From assembly GCA_951799425.1 (NCBI GenBank), contig OX637397.1, positions 8,795,001-8,859,000 of the forward strand: DNA of 64,000 bases. Reading direction: 5' to 3'. Numbering within the stretch: position 1 is the stretch's first letter; each line of letters starts with the position of its first letter. Source of the stretch: Ilex aquifolium (lineage: Eukaryota; Streptophyta; Magnoliopsida; Aquifoliales; Aquifoliaceae). Both the position numbers and the translations under genes were made by a program. This document shows positions 1,947 through 49,320 of this stretch, piece by piece. A model generated the notes under the pieces. It was not told the DNA's origin. It ran no database searches and saw only the letters and a list, made by a program, of their open reading frames with translations.

Positions 1947-4559
1947 CACAACCCTGTCCAACTAGAACTCACATTTGCTAAATTTGGTAAATAATTATCT
2001 ATCCCTCAATGTCTGCAGTATCACCATTAAATGTTGCATATGCTCCTCTTCACTATGAGAGTATATCAATATATCATCAATGAACACTATCACAAATGAA
2101 TCAAGATCTGGTCGGAACATCCGGTTCATCAGATTCATAAATATAGCAAAAGCATTAGTCACACCAAATGGCATCACCAAAAACTCATAGTTACCTGGTA
2201 CGAAAAGCAGTCTTCGATATATCACTATTCCTTACTCTCAACTGATGATAACTTGATTGAAGATCAATCTTTGAAAACACCTGGGCACCCTATAGCTGGT
2301 CCAACAAATCATCTATACGCGACAATGTATACTTGTTCCGGATAGTCACCCTATTCAGTTGTCTATAATCAATGCATAACCTCATAGTGTCATCCTTCTT
2401 CTTTACAAATAATACTGGTGTACCCCAAGGAGATACACTAGGCCGTATGAATCCCTGATCTAACAAATCCTGTAACTGCACTTTAAGTTCCTTCAATTCA
2501 GTTGGAGTCATCTTGTATGGAGTAATAGATGTGGGACTAGTTCCTAACACAAGCTCAATAGTAAATTCCTTCTCCCGATCAACTGGTAACCCTGGTAACA
2601 CTTCAAGAAACACATCAGTGAATTCATTAACCACAGGAATATTCTTCAATTCAGGAGTACCTCTCTGAGTATCTTTCACATAAGCCAAGTACCCATAGCA
2701 TCCTCTCCTGAGTAATTTCCTGACTTTAATTGCAGATATCAAATTCTTCAGCTCAGGGCGTCGCTCTCCAAAGAACCGAAACAAAGGAACATGTGGGATT
2801 CTAAACACCACATCTTTACGAAAATAGTCAATAATGGCATGATATGCAGCCAACCAATCCATCCCCAAAATCAAATCAAAATCCTAGAATTCAAGAGGTA
2901 ACAGATCTGCAGGTAATTCTCTATTACCCACCTCAATTAGGCACCCCCTATATACTACCCCAGCCGTCACACAATCACCCGTGGGAGTAGCTATAGTCAA
3001 TCCACAGTCTAACATGGTAGGTGGTTTATTAACATGCATGGAGAATAACAGTGATATAAATGAACGTGTGGCACCTGAATCTATAAGTACTCGTGCCTAC
3101 TGACCAAAAATAGATATCATACATGTGACCACATTCGGGGTTGCCTGAGCATCCCAGTGGGTAAGTACAAAGACACGACCTCCAGTCTCAGGTCCGCTCG
3201 GTCCATTGCCATCAGCATCACTACCTCTAGTGCCAGTACTGCCTCCTCATCCTCGACCTCTGCCACTCGCTGCTCCTCTTGACACCGTAGATGCACAGCC
3301 CATCGATGAACTCTGGGTAGAATACTACGGACAATCCCTCTGCATATGTCCCTCCTGGCCACATAAAAAGCAACGTCGTGAAACAGCAAGTCCTGGTCCT
3401 CCCATAGGACAGTTCCATATAATTTGCTCAATCTACCTGCAACGGTAACAAGTAACTGCACTCCCCCGAGACTGTCCCATCTCTCGACCCGGTGCAAATG
3501 AATATGATCCACTCACTCCTTGTCCTCGACTCTGGAATGGAACTCCTGATCTCTTGTTGCTTGTACCCTTCGGAAACATTCCTCTCCAGACTCTGCTAAA
3601 AGAACTTCCCTTGGAACCCTGTCCACTTGGCTCATATCTTCCCCTTCTTGCCTCCTCACTTGCACTTTCCATCTCTTTCAGCTCAACTTCCACAATCAAG
3701 GCTTTGTTGTATAATTATGAAAATGTTGTTAACTCCAGCATCGAAACACGGGATCGAATATTGTAGTGTAGCCCCATCTAGAATCTCATGTATCTTTCCC
3801 CCTCATCTGCTACAACAGAAGGCATAAATCTAGACAAAGTACTAAATTTACCCTCGTACTCCAGCACTGACTGATTTCCCTGTTGCAGATGTAAGAATTC
3901 ATTCTATTTCTGGTATCGGTAACTCAAGGGAAAATACTTCTTATCGAAAACATCTGTAAGCTGTCACCATGTGGGAACTCTAGGAACTGAACTGGCCTCC
4001 CCCTTAGTGCACACAGACATCAATGCTCTCTCCGTGGCCTCCCACCAATACTGGGCCTCCTCTACTAGCATGAAAGTGGCCAACAACAATTTATCTTCCT
4101 CGCCAACTCCCATCACCCTGAATATCTTCTCAATGCGCTGTAACCAATTCTTTGCTTCCAATAGACCTGCGGTTCCCATGAATATTGGTGGATCTAGTTT
4201 TTTAAATTGTTCGTACAATGTACCCCTGGGCTTCACTATCTCCACTCGTATTGTGTGTTGCTCAAAATACTTAGCTACTACCTCCCACAGTTGCCTAGCC
4301 CCCTGATCACCTGGTTCCTCCTCCACCTTGGGTCTTTTTTCCCTATCTCCAGCCCTAACAGAGGACCCTTCCCCCTCCATGTATCGTTATAACAAATGTT
4401 AATATCGTATATGGGTAACAATGGCATGCAATGTACATTACACACACTCACACGTACCTCTAACACCCCACCTAAATAGACCAATTCCTAAGTCCACTGT
4501 CACACTAGACTCAACTCGACTACAAAACTATAAACTCTAGCTCTGATATCAACTAATTT
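1947..4559 (-). mobile_element. Broken Ty3/gypsy chromovirus internal region (Tekay/Del-like)
   Basis: Fossil retrotransposon on the minus strand. Parts in element order: a retrotransposon gag domain (about 4380-3964, with the WLQRIEKIF and AQYWWE motifs), a zinc-knuckle region (about 3510-3430), an aspartic protease region (about 3110-2880) running into GMDWLAAYH, and reverse transcriptase (about 2874-1995) with LCIDYRQLN and the catalytic FIDDILIYS box. RNase H, integrase and chromodomain are not visible, so about a third of the element is missing before the left LTR. It is clearly broken, with several interruptions. Lineage is inferred from gag/RT style and the LTR end; Tekay/Del is the best guess. 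Confidence 0.85.
4537..4553 (-). other. Primer-binding site of the Tekay-like element
   Basis: On the minus strand the sequence just inside the LTR end reads TTGATATCAGAGCTAG, one base off the usual plant tRNA-Met primer site TGGTATCAGAGC. It sits a few bases from the LTR edge at 4560, which fixes the element as minus-strand with its 5' LTR on the right. Confidence 0.7.
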
Positions 4560-40439: not shown

Positions 40440-42190
40440 CACTACAAAAAAACAAAAAGAAATTTATTAGCGTTTGTTAAACGCCATGAAATAACAATTA
40501 AACGCCACTTATTATTTTTTTCGACGTCTGTTTTAAAAGTCGTCTAAAGCTCCATCGGTAATTTTGCCGGCATTTATGTAAACGTCGAGAAAGTTATGTC
40601 TGACGTTTACACAAACGCCACATAGCTATTTTAACTCCGGTGACCAGAAAGTTATAACCGAAGTTTATGCAAACGCCGAAAATTTATTCATTGCTTTGTG
40701 GCACTTGAATAAACACTAGGTATTGCTTTTCATATCTTTTTTTTTTCTTTTGGTCTGGATTGCTTTTCATATCTAAACACCAGCCATTGAACAAATTCGG
40801 TCACATCATTCAAAATATATTAATCAATTAACATTCTAATCTTCCTAAAAAAATAGTTAACAGTCAAATACTCAAACAATTCTAGTACAAGAAATGCATC
40901 AAAAATTCATTAAAGAACTTTTGTACATCAGCGTTAAAGCAACTGTTATTGTGAAAATTTAGTGTTCACTGTAAGCATTTAATAATCATCCCAATGACTT
41001 GTCCAATTGTATTACTTTTTTTGGATAACCTGCAATTAAAGGAGAAAAATATAATTAATCAAGAGCATGAGGACTTATTACTATATCAACATGAGAACCA
41101 CCATATGATAAGATAATTAAAAGGGTGCCGATGCTAATATAATATAAAGTAAACCACAAAATTCCACATTAAACAATATATGGAACGAAGATAATATATT
41201 GTTCCATAAAATACACAGGCGGCAATATCAACAGAAGGAAACAAGAGAATACGAAACAATTAACAAACTAAGAAAAATCACTTTTGGACATGGGTAAATG
41301 CAAGCCCTAACTGAATAGTATGTTCAGATTGCTGTTAGCCCTAAGCTTGAATCCATTCTCGAAGGAATCGAGGTATGCTCGACATAGGAAAGTAGTTAGG
41401 TGTTCTAGTATTTGGCTAGTCATGTTTTATGAATTACTGTTGACATAAAAATCAGGACACATAGTAGAAGAAATAGATGTAAACTAGGAAACAGTTGTCT
41501 TAGTGATTCATCTAGATGAAATCCTAATACTCAAGCCACAATATAATGCACACTATAGAAAACCTCCTTGGCGCAGTTTATTGAGATATTCACATCTCAA
41601 TAGGGCCCTCCCCAGATCTGTCCATTGCTGCTAGCAGCCAAGGTGCCAACTAATCTCAAAATCACAGTCACTAGTCACTAATTTGAAGACCTGGGAAGTT
41701 AGAGGACTAGGAAAAAGTGAATCACAAACACAATTATATCAACACCAAATCTTTTATTAAAACAATCAACAAAAGGAGAAATTAACCAACTTTCCATCTC
41801 ATGAAGAACAAACAGGTGAACATATATAAGATTCAGAAAACAAATATACAAGAGGTTCTTGAAAACTTACTCCATAGCTATTAACATGCTACAATTTTGC
41901 TCTCTTTTGCCGATGAACCTACATTTAATATAAATCAACATATGAATTCCACATAAAACAATAAAAGGAACAAATGCATATGGATCACAAGTGCAGGACA
42001 ATAATCCCATCAAACAATTTCCAATAACACAAATTCAATCCAAACATAAAACCCGACAAGCACCAAAAATCCATCAAACTCATTCAAACCAAAGTAATTA
42101 CAACAAGATCAATACCAGTCAATAAACTCATGTAATATTTGAGCTGTTATTCCATTATTTAACTCACCATTCCATTTATAAACTCAATAC
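40440..42190 (+). mobile_element. CACTA (En/Spm) transposon, left end and interior
   Basis: Starts CACTACAAAAAAAC, a textbook CACTA terminal repeat. It is followed by subterminal words of the AAACGCCA / AACGTCG type in both orientations over about 250 bp (40470-40680). No transposase was recognised. The matching right end (...TTTGTAGTG) was not found before the copia fragment, so the element is truncated or split. The right limit given here is where copia sequence begins. Confidence 0.7.
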
Positions 42191-43930
42191 CACTCTCTAA
42201 GAATTTTGAAATGAAAGATATGGGTGAAGCAATCTATGTGATAGGAATTGAAATATTCCATGATAGATCACGTGGACTGTTGGGGTTGTCTCAGAAATCA
42301 TATATTGATAGAGTTTTAGAGAGTTTCAATATAGAGAATTGTTCAGATAGTGTTGCCCCAATTCAGAAAGGGGAAAAATTCAGCCTTATGCAATGCCCAA
42401 AGAATGAATGGGAACGTAAAGAAATGGAAAGGATTTCTTATGCTTCTGCAGTAGGAAGCCTAACGTATGCACAGACTTGCACTAGGCCAGACATCAATTT
42501 TACAGTTGGTATGTTAGGGAGATACCAAAGTAATCCTGGAATGGATCATTGGAAGGCTGCAAAGAAAGTGATGAGGTACTTGAAAGGAACAAAAGAATAT
42601 ATGCTCACATTTAGGAGGTCTAAACATCTAGAGGCTATTGGTTACTCAGATTCGGATTTTGCCGGATGTATAGATAGTAGAAAGTCCATTTTTGGTTATT
42701 TGTTCATTCTAGTCGAAAGGGCAATCTCATGGAAAAGTGCTAAGCAAACTGTCATAGCTTCATCCATAATGGAAGCTGAATTTGTGGCATGCTTTGAGGC
42801 TACAGTTCATGGATTGTGGTTGCGGAATTTATTGTGATAATTCCGCGGCAGTGTTTTTCTCCAAGAACGACAAATTTTCTAAAGGTGCCAAACACATGGA
42901 ATTGAAATACTTTGCCGTCAATAAGGAAGTTCAAAAGAAACGTGTCTATAGAGAACATTAGCACTGAGCTCATGATTGCAGATCCATTAACAAAAGAGTT
43001 ATCACCAAAGACATTTAAGGAACATGTTAACAGAATGAGTCTTGATTATAACCCATGTTTACTTGATGTTGGATTATTTGTTATGTTTATTTACTAGACA
43101 CTTTAATTTTAATGTGTTTTATGATATTTCATGTTTCCATTATGTACGTACATATGTTAGAATTGGATGAATGATAACAAGAGTAGCCTTTGGCACAAGG
43201 CAAATTATTGTTGGACCTCTTTTATATACACTACTCACTTATAAATCATGTTAGACAAGTTACTAGTGTTGTGGTACATGAAAGGGACTATATCGTGTTA
43301 AGGATGTACGACCGTCATAACTCGCATTAGTGATTTGTTTAATTGTGGTATTATGATGACCAAATTAAGTAGTGACGGATTGGATTTAATGTGCGCGTAT
43401 GTTAACCTTGCTAGACTCAACTGTAAGATAATCATATGAGCCAAGTGGGAGAATGTAAGACTTAAATGTGTGGCCCACAGGATTTTTTGGCACATGTGAT
43501 ATTTACTAATGACTAATTAATCGGTGAATTGGTTGGGTCAAGATAATGATAAGACTGTCAATCCCAAACTAACCAGGTAACTGATGTTTTCTGATTGGTC
43601 AAAGAGAAGTAGTAGTTTCCTGATATTCTACTTTGATGGGAAGTAGAGTTCATATTGATTTAGGAAACCGATCATCTCTCTACCTATAAATGTGCACATG
43701 CCCCATTGATTTGTGTATCTTACGTTAAGGGTTAGAGGAGAAAAACTGTGTTTTCATGTTATCCTAAAATACTGTTCTTTTTGTTCAAGAAACTGAAAGG
43801 TTTACATCAATGGCTTCAGGTATGTAAATTATAATGTTTTAATTCTGCAATATGACTATGTGCAAATCATGATTGTTCTAAATTTTGAAATTAGGATTTG
43901 ATTGATTCTTTTGATCAAATAAAATTTACA
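42190..43930 (+). mobile_element. 5'-truncated copia element with 3' LTR
   Basis: Fossil Ty1/copia piece in plus orientation. The end of RT and the RNase H region occupy 42200-43080 (motifs SYASAVGSL, CTRPDINF, IGYSDSDFAGC, SKQT-type AKQT, MEAEFVA). A polypurine tract AAGTGGGAGAA (43443-43453) and a probable LTR (43454-43930; TGTAAG...TTTACA) follow. gag, protease, integrase and most of RT are absent. Broken, with at least one interruption in the remaining part. Confidence 0.8.
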
Positions 43931-44175
43931 TTCAATCCTAAAAGCTTAGCTTCATGCATACAGTCAACGAAGTCTTGCATAGATTGGCACCACCTGTTAC
44001 AACCTCGCTGATTTTCTTGTGTGTTTCTCAATGCATTGAAATCCCCAGCAAGCAAACGAGGTACGACACTAAAGGTTCTTGAGTAGTAACTCAAGTTTCT
44101 CGAAAGCCTGTTTCTTTCATTGTCATAATTTGCTCCATAAACAAAAGAAACAATAAATCTTGGTCTATATACCAA
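43931..44175 (-). mobile_element. LINE (L1-type) endonuclease fragment
   Basis: A minus-strand stretch coding VSFVYGANYDNERNRLW-like sequence and LLAGDFNALRN, the exonuclease-endonuclease-phosphatase signature (GDFN) of plant L1 LINEs. It continues into FVDCMHEAKLLGL. Only about 80 residues remain. It abuts the copia LTR, so one probably interrupted or deleted the other. Confidence 0.75.
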
Positions 44176-44569
44176 GATTGATGTGCCTTATATATAGTTG
44201 GAATTCCACTCAACAACTCGTAACTATAGCACCATAATATATAATGTTTATATATTTATATTAGTTGCATGTGCATGAAACCAATTATCATTGACCTCCT
44301 GGAAAAATTCAAAATAATGATTTCAGAGATGTCGAAACTCTAACGCTATGTTTGGTACATGGTATTAGACCTTAGGAATGGAATGAACATTCCATGGGAA
44401 TGCCTATTCTAATGTTTGGTTTACAGGATTTAAAATTCATTCCCTTTCCAAAGGAATACCTAATTCCACAAATTATGGGATTAAGCATTACCAAATCCAA
44501 CATGTTATTCTTCATTCCCAATCCACTCGGTAATGGTCCAATCCATCTAAAAAAAAAACCCCGATCGCG

Positions 44570-44944
44570 CAGACTGTTTTTCTCTCTCTCGTCTCATCTG
44601 GTCTCTCTCTCTCTCTCGTCTCATCTGGTCTCGTCTTTCTCTCGCCTCATTTGGTCTCGTCTCTCTCGCACACATTCTCATCAGATCTGCATCTCTCTCT
44701 CTGAGATCTAAGACTCCATCTCTGTAGAGGTCCGCTGCTATCAATCTTGGAGCTTCTCTCTCGACGAAACAAGGATAAGATTTGTTACAAAGAACAATTA
44801 AGACGAGCGCAAATCTAACACAATTTCAGGTAATTTTTATATCTAACCTAGAATTGTAGAATGTTATAATTTTTATATCTACAAACAATTACTGTAGATG
44901 CTTTCGTTGTATCTAAACAATGGAATCAAGTTGAGTTATTTTTT
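44570..44944 (+). other. CT-rich leader and possible intron before the PPR segment
   Basis: CTCTCTCGTCTCATCTGGTC repeats (44580-44665) look like a plant 5' UTR microsatellite. At 44829 CAG|GTAATTT resembles a splice donor, and TTATTTTTTAG at 44946 an acceptor immediately before PPR coding homology. The element may therefore hold a 5' UTR exon and intron from a host gene, possibly not the PPR gene itself. Confidence 0.4.
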
Positions 44945-44947
44945 AGG

Positions 44948-46517
44948 TACTTTGAAACCATGGGTGTGTCGCAAAATTTGGAAACCTACAATCTTTTGCT
45001 CAAAATTTCATGTAAAAAGAAGCAATTTGATAAGGCAATGGGGTTGTTGAACTGGAAGTGGGATCGGGATTTGAAGCCCGATGTGTGTAGTTATGGAACT
45101 TTGATCAATGGACTGGCCAAAAGTGGGGAATTACTACAAGCGTTGAATATGTTCGATGAAATGTTCGAGAGAGGGGTGAGTCCGGATGTGATGTGTTATA
45201 ATATTTTGATTGATGGGTTTTTCAAGAAAGGTGATTTTTTGGGGGCTAATGAGATTTGGGAGAGGTTGATCAAAGGATCATCGGCATATCCAAATGTTGT
45301 TACTTATAATGTGATGATCAGTGGGTTGTGCAAGTGTGGGAAGTTTGACGAGAGTTTGGAAATGTGGGAAATGATGAAGAAGAATGAGAGGCAAATGGAA
45401 TTGTTCACGTACAGTGCTTTGATACATGGGTTATGTGAGTCAGGGAATGTTGATGGGGGTTTAAGAGTTTATAAGCAAATGATTGAGAGTGGGGTGTCTC
45501 CTGATGTGGTAGTATATAATGCATTGCTGGGTATTGTGGAGTTGGGAGGATTGAAGAGGGTTTTGAGTTGTGGGATTTGATGGGAAGGGTGGGTTGTCGA
45601 AATGTTGTAAGTTTCAATATATTGATTGGAGGGTTGTTTAAGAACGGGAAGGTGGAGGAGGCTATTTCAATTTGACAGCTCTTGCAGAGCAGTGGTTATG
45701 TTGCGGATTCAACAACTTATGGAATACTTGTTCATGGAGTTTGTAAGACTGGGTACTTGACCAAGGCTTTATGGGTCTTGAAAGAGGCAGAAGTTAGAGG
45801 AGATGATCTGGGTATTTTTGCATATTCTTCAATGATCAATGGATTGTGTAGAGAAGGACGATTAGATGCAGCAGTTATTATGCTTGACCGGATGGCTAAA
45901 TGTGGCTGTAAACCAAATCCTCATGTTTGCAGTGCGCTTCTCAATGGGTTGATTCGAGCTTCTAAAATTGAGGATGCAATTCAGTTCTTTGGTGAAATGA
46001 CAACGAGGGGTTGCATTCCAACTGTTGTCACCTATAACATTCTTATTGATGGATTATGCAAAGCAAAGAGGTTTAGTAAAGCCTATATCATTGTGCAGGA
46101 AATGCTTGCAAAAGGATGGAAGCCGGACATGGTTACGTATAGCTTATTGATTGATGGTCTTTGTGAAGACAAGAATGTAGATGCAGCTCTCAACTTGTGG
46201 TGTCAAGTGGTTAATAAAGGTTTCAAGCCTGATGTAACTATGCATAACATCATAATTCATGGGTTGTGCTCTGTCGGAAAAGTTGAAAATGCTTTGCAGC
46301 TATATCTGAATGAGTCAGTGGAACTGTGTCCCAAATCTTGTAACCCACAACACACTAATAAGGGATTTTACAAAATTAGAGACTGCAAAAACGCATTAGT
46401 GATTTGGGCCTATATTTTTAGTCATGGGCTTCAACCAGACATCATTTCCTATTATATCGCTCTGAAAGGGCTTTGTTCTTGTAACAGAATACCGGATGTC
46501 ATTGGGTTCTTCAACTC
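44948..46517 (+). pseudogene. P-class PPR protein segment, broken (At3g09060-like)
   Basis: A captured piece of a pentatricopeptide-repeat gene; such proteins bind organelle RNA. The sequence runs through about a dozen 35-residue repeats with the typical YNILIDGFFKKG and VTYNILIDGLCKA wording. From memory it resembles Arabidopsis At3g09060, here starting at the YFETMGV part, so at least the first 120 residues (with any targeting peptide) are missing. Breaks: a frame change near 45545, an in-frame TGA at 45673 where Trp is expected, and two compensating shifts near 46305 and 46362. Homology stops near 46517 (VIGFFN), after which the frame runs into transposon sequence. Not a working gene. Confidence 0.85.
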
Positions 46518-47084
46518 TTATTTTTGGACTTGCTTTATTTTTTGGTTCAACCTACATGTTTGGATAAGATTCTTAGTTGTCTCGATAGTTTTCTTTTTGG
46601 GTTGGCACATGTGTTCTATTGAATTCATTATGAACTATAGTTATTCATTTGAAATGAATGACCAATTAAGAATAGTTTTTGATTTTAATTTTTTTTTGTG
46701 AGTCTATTTTTAAAGGAATTTGTTTTCTAATTTTTTAAAATTTATAGGGATTTAATTTTTTTCAATGGATTCTTATTTTTTCTAATTATAAATTTTTTTC
46801 CACAACTTTTAAAGACAATCGCAATCATAAAAATAAAAAAAAAATGTTATTAATTATTTTTAGTCACTATGAATATTTTGGTTAAAGTTGATTCCATTCT
46901 AATGAAAAAATTATTTTATCCAAACATAAGAATGGAATGAACATTCTATTCCAGCACTTAATCCTAAACAGCTGTCAAATATTAGAATGGTAATGCGCAT
47001 TCCATTCAATTTCTAAGTTCATTACATTCCAAAATTCATTCCATTCCTACTGAAAAGCATTACCGCGTACTAAACACAGCGTAA

Positions 47085-47772
47085 GAGACTTGTCGGGAGT
47101 TTTCTAAAATTCAACAAGAGTTTTTTTTACGGTGTATATTATTGGACATCATGTTTGGTTTTATTTCAGTTAGATAATATTTATATTTATATAGCATTTA
47201 ATGATTATTTAAAGGCAGATATGGTGACAATGTTTTATAAAGATGAGAGAAAAAAATGATCAATAATGGCGAGAATTATGATTAATTTTTAGATTAGCTA
47301 CTGTGTTAGATCACAGGTTAAAAAGTTAATGCCCAAATGACCTCCCAAACATTTACTCAATGATAAAGAATTGCAATCGAAGCCAGTCCTTCAATCACTA
47401 AACACTTGGACATGGATAATTTTTCCTCAGATGATTTTATAAAGCAATCAGTTCTGTGATTGAAGGATTTGCATGTATGGTAAATTTTTCCTATTATGGC
47501 AACTATTGGCGAGAGATAACCGATTTACAGGTTTCTAGTTAAACATTGTTCGACTTTTGCCTTGCTTTTGCTTTTATTTTATTTTTTTTGTTCAATACAA
47601 AGTAGACATCAAAATTGTATTTTCAGTTTGAAATGTAATGTATAAATTTACGGCTTACGTTGATCTGAGTCATTGTTGATTATGCCTCCTAAAACACTAG
47701 AATATATAGTTTTTTTCTTGATCACAAGACATTAGTTGTCATCACCGTGATGATGTAACAATACAAGATTTC
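47085..47772. other. No gene seen
   Basis: AT-rich intergenic sequence, no supportable feature. Confidence 0.5.
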
Positions 47773-48192
47773 TCATAGGCCCAGGTTGGTCCCTAGAAGG
47801 TTGTTCAAAGTCACAACCCCCGTCACTATCTTGAAGAAGTGAGGACAAAGTTGGGGAGGGCAGAGCCGCTTTAGTGCAAAAAGCACCCTGAGAAAAAGAG
47901 GATGGAGAGGGAAACGAACTCCACCCTCAGTAATAGAAATGGTGTAGATAGCGATGGAATCCCTAGAGCCAATAAGAGCTACGTTGGCCTTGGGTACCCT
48001 AATCCCAACATCGGCCTGGACACCATAAGTGACCTTGAAGACGGGTATGTCCTCTTTTACAAGGGGGGCCATGGAAAGCAGGAAAAGAAGAATTGAGGTT
48101 TGCAGGAAAGTAAAGGCTTTGAAAAGCTTCAATGGAAGAAAGGAGTAAAAATGAAGAAGACGACCCTTTAAATAGAAGGGAAAAAGCGCCAA
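47773..48192 (-). pseudogene. Transposon-related domain relic (PF04195-like)
   Basis: A minus-strand ORF whose second half reads GGVRFPLHPLFLRVLFAL and PQLCPHFFKIVTGVVTLN. It resembles the N-terminal 'putative gypsy type transposon' domain found in many plant repeat-derived proteins (FPLHPF-V-L...PAQLHPN-W pattern). The rest of such a protein is not seen. A relic of a non-autonomous element is likely; assignment is from wording alone. Confidence 0.4.
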
Positions 48193-48480
48193 AGAAATGG
48201 TGCCTGCAACGGCGTCTGATTAGTGGTCTTTAGACATGCTCTCCCTACAACATGTGGTCTTAGTGTATCTACATGTGATGGTAGGTGATTTAAGAGTGGT
48301 TTGTTTCGTAGGACATTGCTAGTTGGTCACTGAACCATATGACAACTATAACTATAACCCGAGCTTTTTAGTATGCATCTGTAGAAGCCAACCCCCAATT
48401 ATCCCATCTCTCACTTGGTTTTTCTGCTGCTCTTAATCTATTTCTTCCTATTCAAACCTTGATTTTCCACTAATGCAGGT

Positions 48481-48602
48481 TCAAGAGAACATGAAGGCTA
48501 TTACTGTGATGGAGAAGATTGAGGCTGTTGTTCAAAGCAAGCCAAAGCGTTCAGATGCATATCGACAAACAAGATGTATGCATCAAATCCCTGTGTTTTC
48601 TT
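48481..48602 (+). other. Exon-like coding stretch, unidentified
   Basis: After CTAATGCAG (acceptor-like) a 40-codon open stretch reads ENMKAITVMEKIEAVVQSK, then PKRSDAYRQTR, and ends at a TAA after FSW. Codon use looks protein-like and unlike the AT-rich surroundings. It may be a stray exon of a host gene carried in by duplication. I do not recognise the protein. Confidence 0.3.
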
Positions 48603-49320
48603 GGTAATGCTCTGCAGATTCTATGGGCTTTTTGTTTACTGTTATATGAAGACAATGTACTTTTTTTATTTTAATGATATGCTCGACAATTATCAATCAT
48701 TCTTGCCCTCTAGATTTTCACTTGAATAGTGTTTCAGGTTTCATTTTCTTTTTTGTGCAAACCATGCACTGTAGCAATGGTCGAAAGTCTGTTCTTACTC
48801 GTTTATAAGTTGGGTTCTACATAATTTCATAGGAACATCCAACTTTGAGTTGAAATTATCATCTTTGTGGAGCCAAGCTTTTGCAGCATGCATATGTTTG
48901 TTCTGTCTCATGGGAACATCCAACGGTGAGCGGAAATTATCATCTATTTTTCAATATTGCGGTGTTTTTATTGGCCCTTTTTAATACATTTTACCTTGCC
49001 CTCCCCATTTTCAATTCAACAATTGTTGGGTTGATAGTAGATCCAATTTGACATTGAGACTCACTGTGATCCAATGGTAGGGGTTGATTATCATCACTCT
49101 TTTTGATTTGATTTAACTGACCCAAAATCATGTTATCCAAAGAGAGAAACAATCATCCAGTAAACGCCAAGGGCCCTACTTGGCCAGGCCCTTGCTTGGC
49201 TGGTGCTCCAGTTATAAATAATAGTATATTTATTTTAAAAAAATAATTAAATATTGAATGATAAATTATTAAAGTCTTTGTGACTTTTGAGAGCAATTAA
49301 AAAAATGTGAAGTAAATATA
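48603..49320. other. No gene seen
   Basis: Contains two similar phrases, 'CATAGGAACATCCAAC' (48829) and 'CATGGGAACATCCAAC' (48919), each followed by GAAATTATCATC, so a short partial duplication of about 90 bp. Otherwise featureless. Confidence 0.45.

Follow-up and report, generated by a model that had tools for sequence, protein, structure and literature searches.

The DNA analysed here (the window, 64,000 nucleotides in length) corresponds to C7:8795001-8859000 of an 800-Mb plant genome. One transposon spans window positions 44344-47081, and its coordinates are exact. These limits, together with the inverted ends and the flanking TAA, had been named in the original prediction and were borne out in full, with 13/15 positions of the ends pairing and TAA present on both sides. 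The features of the element are listed below in window coordinates:

44341-44343 (no strand): left target site duplication, TAA
44344-44358 (+ strand): left terminal inverted repeat, CGCTATGTTTGGTAC, of which 13/15 positions pair with the inverted right end
44344-44861 (+ strand): PIF/Harbinger left end region, 84-88% to L029, L030, L031, L034, and others
44862-44897 (+ strand): left-junction filler, containing at 44867-44881 a 15-bp copy of element positions 44831-44845
44898-46514 (+ strand): captured PPR gene segment, with 1579/1624 aligned columns equal to C9:5315026-5316649(-)
46515-46517 (+ strand): right-junction filler, CTC, 3 bp, common to copies L009 and L011
46518-47081 (+ strand): PIF/Harbinger right end region, 86-90% to at least 35 further places
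47067-47081 (- strand): right terminal inverted repeat (GTACTAAACACAGCG on the + strand), in inverted pairing with the left end at 13/15 positions
47082-47084 (no strand): right target site duplication, TAA

The interior of the element encodes PPR repeats, recovered as Pfam PPR_2 in two ORFs (E = 1.8e-59 and 6.2e-62), and a protein-match scan inside the element gave no match to PIF family transposase or Myb-like proteins. Both parts of the prediction of a PPR coding interior without a transposase were thus upheld. The likeness of the left end to transposase-bearing members of the family runs on to about position 44873. The right end region is of a type that is present at high copy number in the genome and is located 3' of a DDE transposase in other members. 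Directly left of the element, window 43544-43931 matches at least 37 other places at 85-91% and is presumably an LTR end; what we take to be the end of a copia-like ORF is located at 42912-43097.

Window 44898-46514 was aligned to C9:5315026-5316649(-), to which it is 97% identical (1579/1624 columns). The C9 PPR gene is a single open frame of 764 codons from stop to stop, and the captured part begins and ends within this frame. When the genome was queried with just the PPR part, every candidate was scored (5/5), and the matches were confined to the window, its C7 duplicate (described below), C9, and C2. Given this open frame and the result of the search, C9 is considered to be the parent or the closest relative in the genome, and the piece was not captured along an exon edge. 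Such an edge had been proposed at the start of the PPR part, where an "acceptor-like" CTGTAG is present just 5' of it. This motif is filler DNA. Exon-edge capture was rejected, since the C9 parental frame is open and uninterrupted across the left edge and the AG belongs to the filler. The parental PPR locus that had been expected was found, on C9 and without element ends (no end-like match in 9.9 kb of this locus, L010).

A second copy of the unit, consisting of this PPR piece between these ends, is located on C2 (L011 3247-8060), where TGA is present on both sides and the flanks are unrelated. The right join, which runs from TTCTTCAA (PPR) through CTC to TTATTTTT (element), is identical in the window, in L009 on C7, and in L011. 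Across 1153 gap-free columns, six substitutions relative to the parent are common to all three element copies and five more are common to the window and the C7 duplicate, while private substitutions number 12 in the window, 12 in the duplicate, and 18 on C2. A 4-bp deletion is also common to the window and the C7 duplicate. Because the C7 and C2 sites are unrelated and have their own duplications, and because the join and the six substitutions are held in common, the PPR-carrying unit moved after one capture.

L009 (C7:8555245-8563371) is a segmental duplicate of window 41679-49134, located 281 kb away on the same contig and mostly 94-97% identical. This duplication takes in the flanks and TAA, and L009 is not a separate insertion. 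The left end of the element copy in L009 contains a nested MITE from the same family (L009 3208-3653), which is 446 bp long, reversed in orientation, and has a TTA duplication. A search of this genome for an empty site with the C7 left flank gave none among the best 40 of 248 candidates, which were mostly repeats; 37 of the matches fell to a repeat in the first 388 bases, and the only other full match among those listed was the C7 duplicate, which also bears the element. For the C2 site, the full-length flank matches were the flanks themselves only, and no empty site was seen (best 40 of 708 candidates, mostly repeats). An insertion in the C2 PPR piece (L011 4228-6081) has TG...CA ends and a 5-bp duplication, TCAAC, and looks like a small LTR retrotransposon. 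At C2, a tandem duplication covers the right end and about 50 bp of the adjoining flank (L011 8102-8221).

The C2 copy also contains a second host gene. In place of about 286 bp of PPR (46220-46505), it has 890 bp with 97% identity to C14:30041413-30042301. The C14 source is a DUF3511 gene, and the captured copy (Pfam E = 2.3e-23) retains a complete 113-codon frame. PPR is contiguous in the window, whereas on C2 the order is PPR, DUF3511, and PPR tail. Since the final PPR bases and the CTC filler persist to the right of the DUF3511 piece, PPR was captured before DUF3511. The DUF3511 piece joins flush, with overlaps of about 4 bp (one later substitution allowed; strict count -3) and 1 bp.

Relatives of the element were sought by DNA searches of the genome. 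With the whole element as query (best 40 of 449 candidates scored), the C2 and C7 copies were recovered along with at least 35 other places that match its right 0.55 kb at 86-90%, and the left end was also found across the genome (best 40 of 201 candidates scored). Family members with common ends differ in their interiors, so that the anticipated set of many copies with the same ends and unlike interiors was recovered with both queries. Target duplications were compared in 11 elements selected for having both end regions found. Matching 3-bp duplications were present in 10/11 of these, nine being TAA or TTA and one TGA (C2), which exceeds what chance would give; the one exception is L016, whose right end is lost. 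Among elements sampled by their left ends, five were readable at both flanks, of which two match (L047, TAA; L043, CAA) and three have unmatched flanks (L038, L042, L046). Five elements of a 2.65-kb subfamily (L014, L017, L018, L022, and L024), compared across their sites, are 99.1-99.8% identical to each other, a degree of sequence likeness that suggests recent movement.

Some members with window-type end regions encode a DDE_Tnp_4 transposase in two exons (in L016, Pfam E = 3.7e-21). Both transposase exons were matched without stops in L019 and L021, and L015 combines window-type ends with transposase exons. Window-type end regions are also present in L029, L030, and L034. A Myb/SANT-like ORF was identified in L031 (Pfam Myb_DNA-bind_3) and matched also in L033, L038, L040, and L041. 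Transposase and Myb-like ORF1 occurred together in 0/42 sources scanned, a set in which some loci were covered in part only, and their separation could possibly reflect either split helper functions or a sampling effect. The element is placed in PIF/Harbinger on account of its ends, the 3-bp duplications, and the family members with a DDE_Tnp_4 transposase. The PIF partner that had been expected for the window element is represented by the transposase-bearing members, which have its end regions.

Pieces of five host genes (PPR, DUF3511, KCS, MRS2-like, and GST) are represented in elements of the family. The 2.65-kb subfamily carries a gene piece in reverse orientation (Pfam FAE1_CUT1_RppA), which we take to be from a 3-ketoacyl-CoA synthase (KCS). 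Its parent is an open frame on C6 (98.9% over 567 columns), and at least seven places match the KCS query at 99-100% over its full or almost full length (best 40 of 55 candidates). An MRS2-like piece is common to L047 and L039, and a tandem pair of its close relatives is present on C5. Its two exon pieces joined gave a Pfam E value of 4.9e-5, under the family cut-off; the single exons had no Pfam match, and comparison with solved structures returned nothing useful (one match, E = 0.098). In L047, a high-copy repeat of about 167 bp, MITE-like and with matches in both orientations, is inserted in the MRS2-like piece (query 1875-2042). L042 carries a GST gene in which both domains and the intervening stretch are present. 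The best-matching pieces of this gene reach 91-92% to members of a C12 tandem cluster, no single one of which covers the whole at that level. Both the MRS2-like piece and the GST piece run colinear with the genomic sequence of their donors, between coding blocks as well as within them, and were therefore copied from DNA.

The places examined by their left ends numbered 17 (L029-L034 and L037-L047) and were taken from the left-end match list. In 8/17 the right end was absent from the examined sequence (L032, L033, L037, L039, L040, L041, L044, and L045), L039 with its MRS2-like piece being one of these. Among the nine places with a right end, a recognised host-gene piece was present in two, namely the GST of L042, which has both ends and unmatched flanks (ACA/TTA), and the MRS2-like piece of L047. 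Capture is thus repeated in this family and is not the rule. In L041, an antisense ORF at 3736-4242 (reversed locus) is presumably aldehyde-dehydrogenase-like; the ORF 3' of the left end of this locus was not counted as a capture, with no right end within 8.8 kb.

In comparison with the parent, the window PPR piece shows three deletions (of 4, 2, and 1 bp) and one premature stop. Synonymous changes relative to the parent make up 13/38 in the window, 12/35 in L009, and 8/24 on C2, where the expected fraction is 0.237. Purifying selection was undetected in any of the three PPR copies, none of which differs significantly from this neutral value. Of the 20 changes common to the window and L009, nine are synonymous, which is above expectation (p = 0.034, one of six uncorrected tests) and could be due to changes on the parental branch, where constraint acts. 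Judged by its sequence, the window PPR piece looks like a decaying passenger.

The predicted PIF/Harbinger transposon with a PPR fragment is supported by the family ends, the DDE_Tnp_4 members, the C9 parent, and the C2 insertion. We conclude with high confidence that the element is a non-autonomous Pack-PIF, in which PIF ends enclose an interior copied from an unlinked PPR gene, and that the unit moved later. Weighing against this reading are the lack of an empty site among the candidates scored, the TGA in place of TAA or TTA at C2, the unmatched flanks of three of the five readable left-end elements, and the failure of transposase and Myb-like ORF1 to coincide in any source scanned. Two separate MITEs flanking an old resident PPR locus by chance would give a similar outline, and MITE-size copies of the family do exist, such as the 446-bp one nested in L009. 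The same PPR-plus-ends unit, however, recurs with its right junction and six substitutions at the unlinked C2 site, the limits of the PPR piece fall inside the C9 frame, and the outer TAA is identical on both sides, which makes a chance pair of MITEs extremely improbable. For the reverse direction of copying, with the C9 gene as the copy and the C7/C2 locus as the source, there is nothing but the symmetry of pairwise identity; given that the C9 frame is full and open over 764 codons and that the element has a broken inner 1.6 kb only, we assign this direction a negligible probability. It is also very improbable that the PPR sequence within the element serves as a working or domesticated gene. 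Its reading frame does survive in two pieces of 206 and 339 codons, a chance GT...AG pair at 44830-44897 might permit splicing, and 9/20 of the changes shared by the window and L009 are synonymous (p = 0.034, uncorrected, one of six), but the window copy has three deletions and a premature stop, and the synonymous fraction relative to the parent is not significantly above 0.237 in any copy.

The manner of capture was considered within this Pack-PIF reading. Break repair with template switching is expected to leave templated filler and short overlaps. In the left filler, 15 bases repeat element sequence 36 bp upstream, and the repeated bases include the variant ATATC, which is absent from 6/6 other aligned members (L009 excepted); 0/2000 control 36-mers reached 15, and the longest was 12. 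The 1-bp overlap at one of the DUF3511 joins is little informative. Parental stretches of the five genes were searched for end-like matches, which were found in 0/6 (L010, 9.9 kb; L035, 2.3 kb; L036, 2.6 kb; L051, 3.4 kb; L052, 2.0 kb; L053, 1.7 kb; all but L010 short). Under the proposed mechanism, a PIF element would have suffered an internal break or excision gap, and copying repair would have closed it, during which the polymerase changed template to the PPR gene and then returned, leaving filler at the joins. A separate, later event placed the complete DUF3511 frame within the PPR portion of the C2 element. Movement of the elements would depend on transposase from relatives, and the PPR piece would decay as a passenger. 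Gap-filling capture is described for animal Pack-TIRs in the available text of PMC8277862.

Neighbour fusion offers a different route, in which two PIF copies flanking a PPR gene are mobilised as one unit and their inner ends are lost. According to the available text of PMC8903248, this model was put forward for Pack-CACTA and other Pack-TYPE elements and is backed by maize PIF clusters, and the accessible portion of a 2026 review restates it and allows another mechanism (PMC13317346). The left and right parts of the window element could stem from two copies. Against this stand the 0/6 parental stretches with end-like matches, five of them only 1.7-3.4 kb long, and the left-join filler, which is templated from the element itself. 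In addition, the DUF3511 piece is bordered by PPR to its left and right, about 286 bp of PPR being absent between, so that fusion would call for two PPR-carrying copies beside the C14 gene. Neighbour fusion is accordingly judged unlikely, and copying repair, as read from few joins, is preferred as the probable route. We advance more tentatively, as a proposal that we hold somewhat doubtful, that the PIF family habitually copies unlinked genes in series, a complete small gene included, through template-switching repair within the element and not through neighbour fusion.

Pack-type PIF elements are already known, and the family here is an unusually clear example. Plant Pack-MULEs likewise have gene pieces between transposon ends and unlinked parents; their Mutator ends have 9-bp duplications, unlike the window element. 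Pack-PIF elements of maize and rice have been published (Gisby and Catoni 2022, PMC8903248), and as described in the available text of that paper they likewise have PIF/Harbinger ends, host gene pieces inside, and amplified clusters; 52% of the rice PIF elements and 81% of the maize ones have TAA/TTA duplications. One maize cluster described there includes a subgroup with an added second gene piece, the pieces being 163 bp and 58 bp (PMC8903248). By comparison, the pieces here are 1.6 kb of PPR and 0.89 kb with the complete DUF3511 frame, the second is inside the first, and the joins lean towards copying repair over neighbour fusion.

Grapevine Pifvine-3, in the portions of the 2008 paper available (PMC2528002), is likewise a PIF with host exons and introns, some common to several copies; its gene pieces are in the long 5' regions of elements described as having transposase, whereas here they replace the transposase region. 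A PPR piece is reported in the same text as well, in a CACTA element (PMC2528002). The animal Pack-TIRs (2021, PMC8277862) resemble the present case, in the text available, in gap-filling or template-switching capture with short overlaps, and they include one join with a new insertion and some interchromosomal multicopy cases. They differ in belonging to animal families and in a bias of captures to the same chromosome (PMC8277862). A literature search, with most subscription journals outside its scope, found no publication titled on this PIF family.

The means by which DNA transposons acquire host genes are still under debate. Close parents of four of the pieces (PPR, DUF3511, KCS, and MRS2-like) are still present in this genome, as is a cluster of close relatives of the GST piece. 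The capture joins of the window and C2 copies are resolved at the level of single bases, and within one lineage the order of two captures is apparent. With parents surviving, joins readable, and captures ordered, this family is a good test case for copying repair versus neighbour fusion, and it adds a PIF/Harbinger family with kilobase-sized gene pieces.
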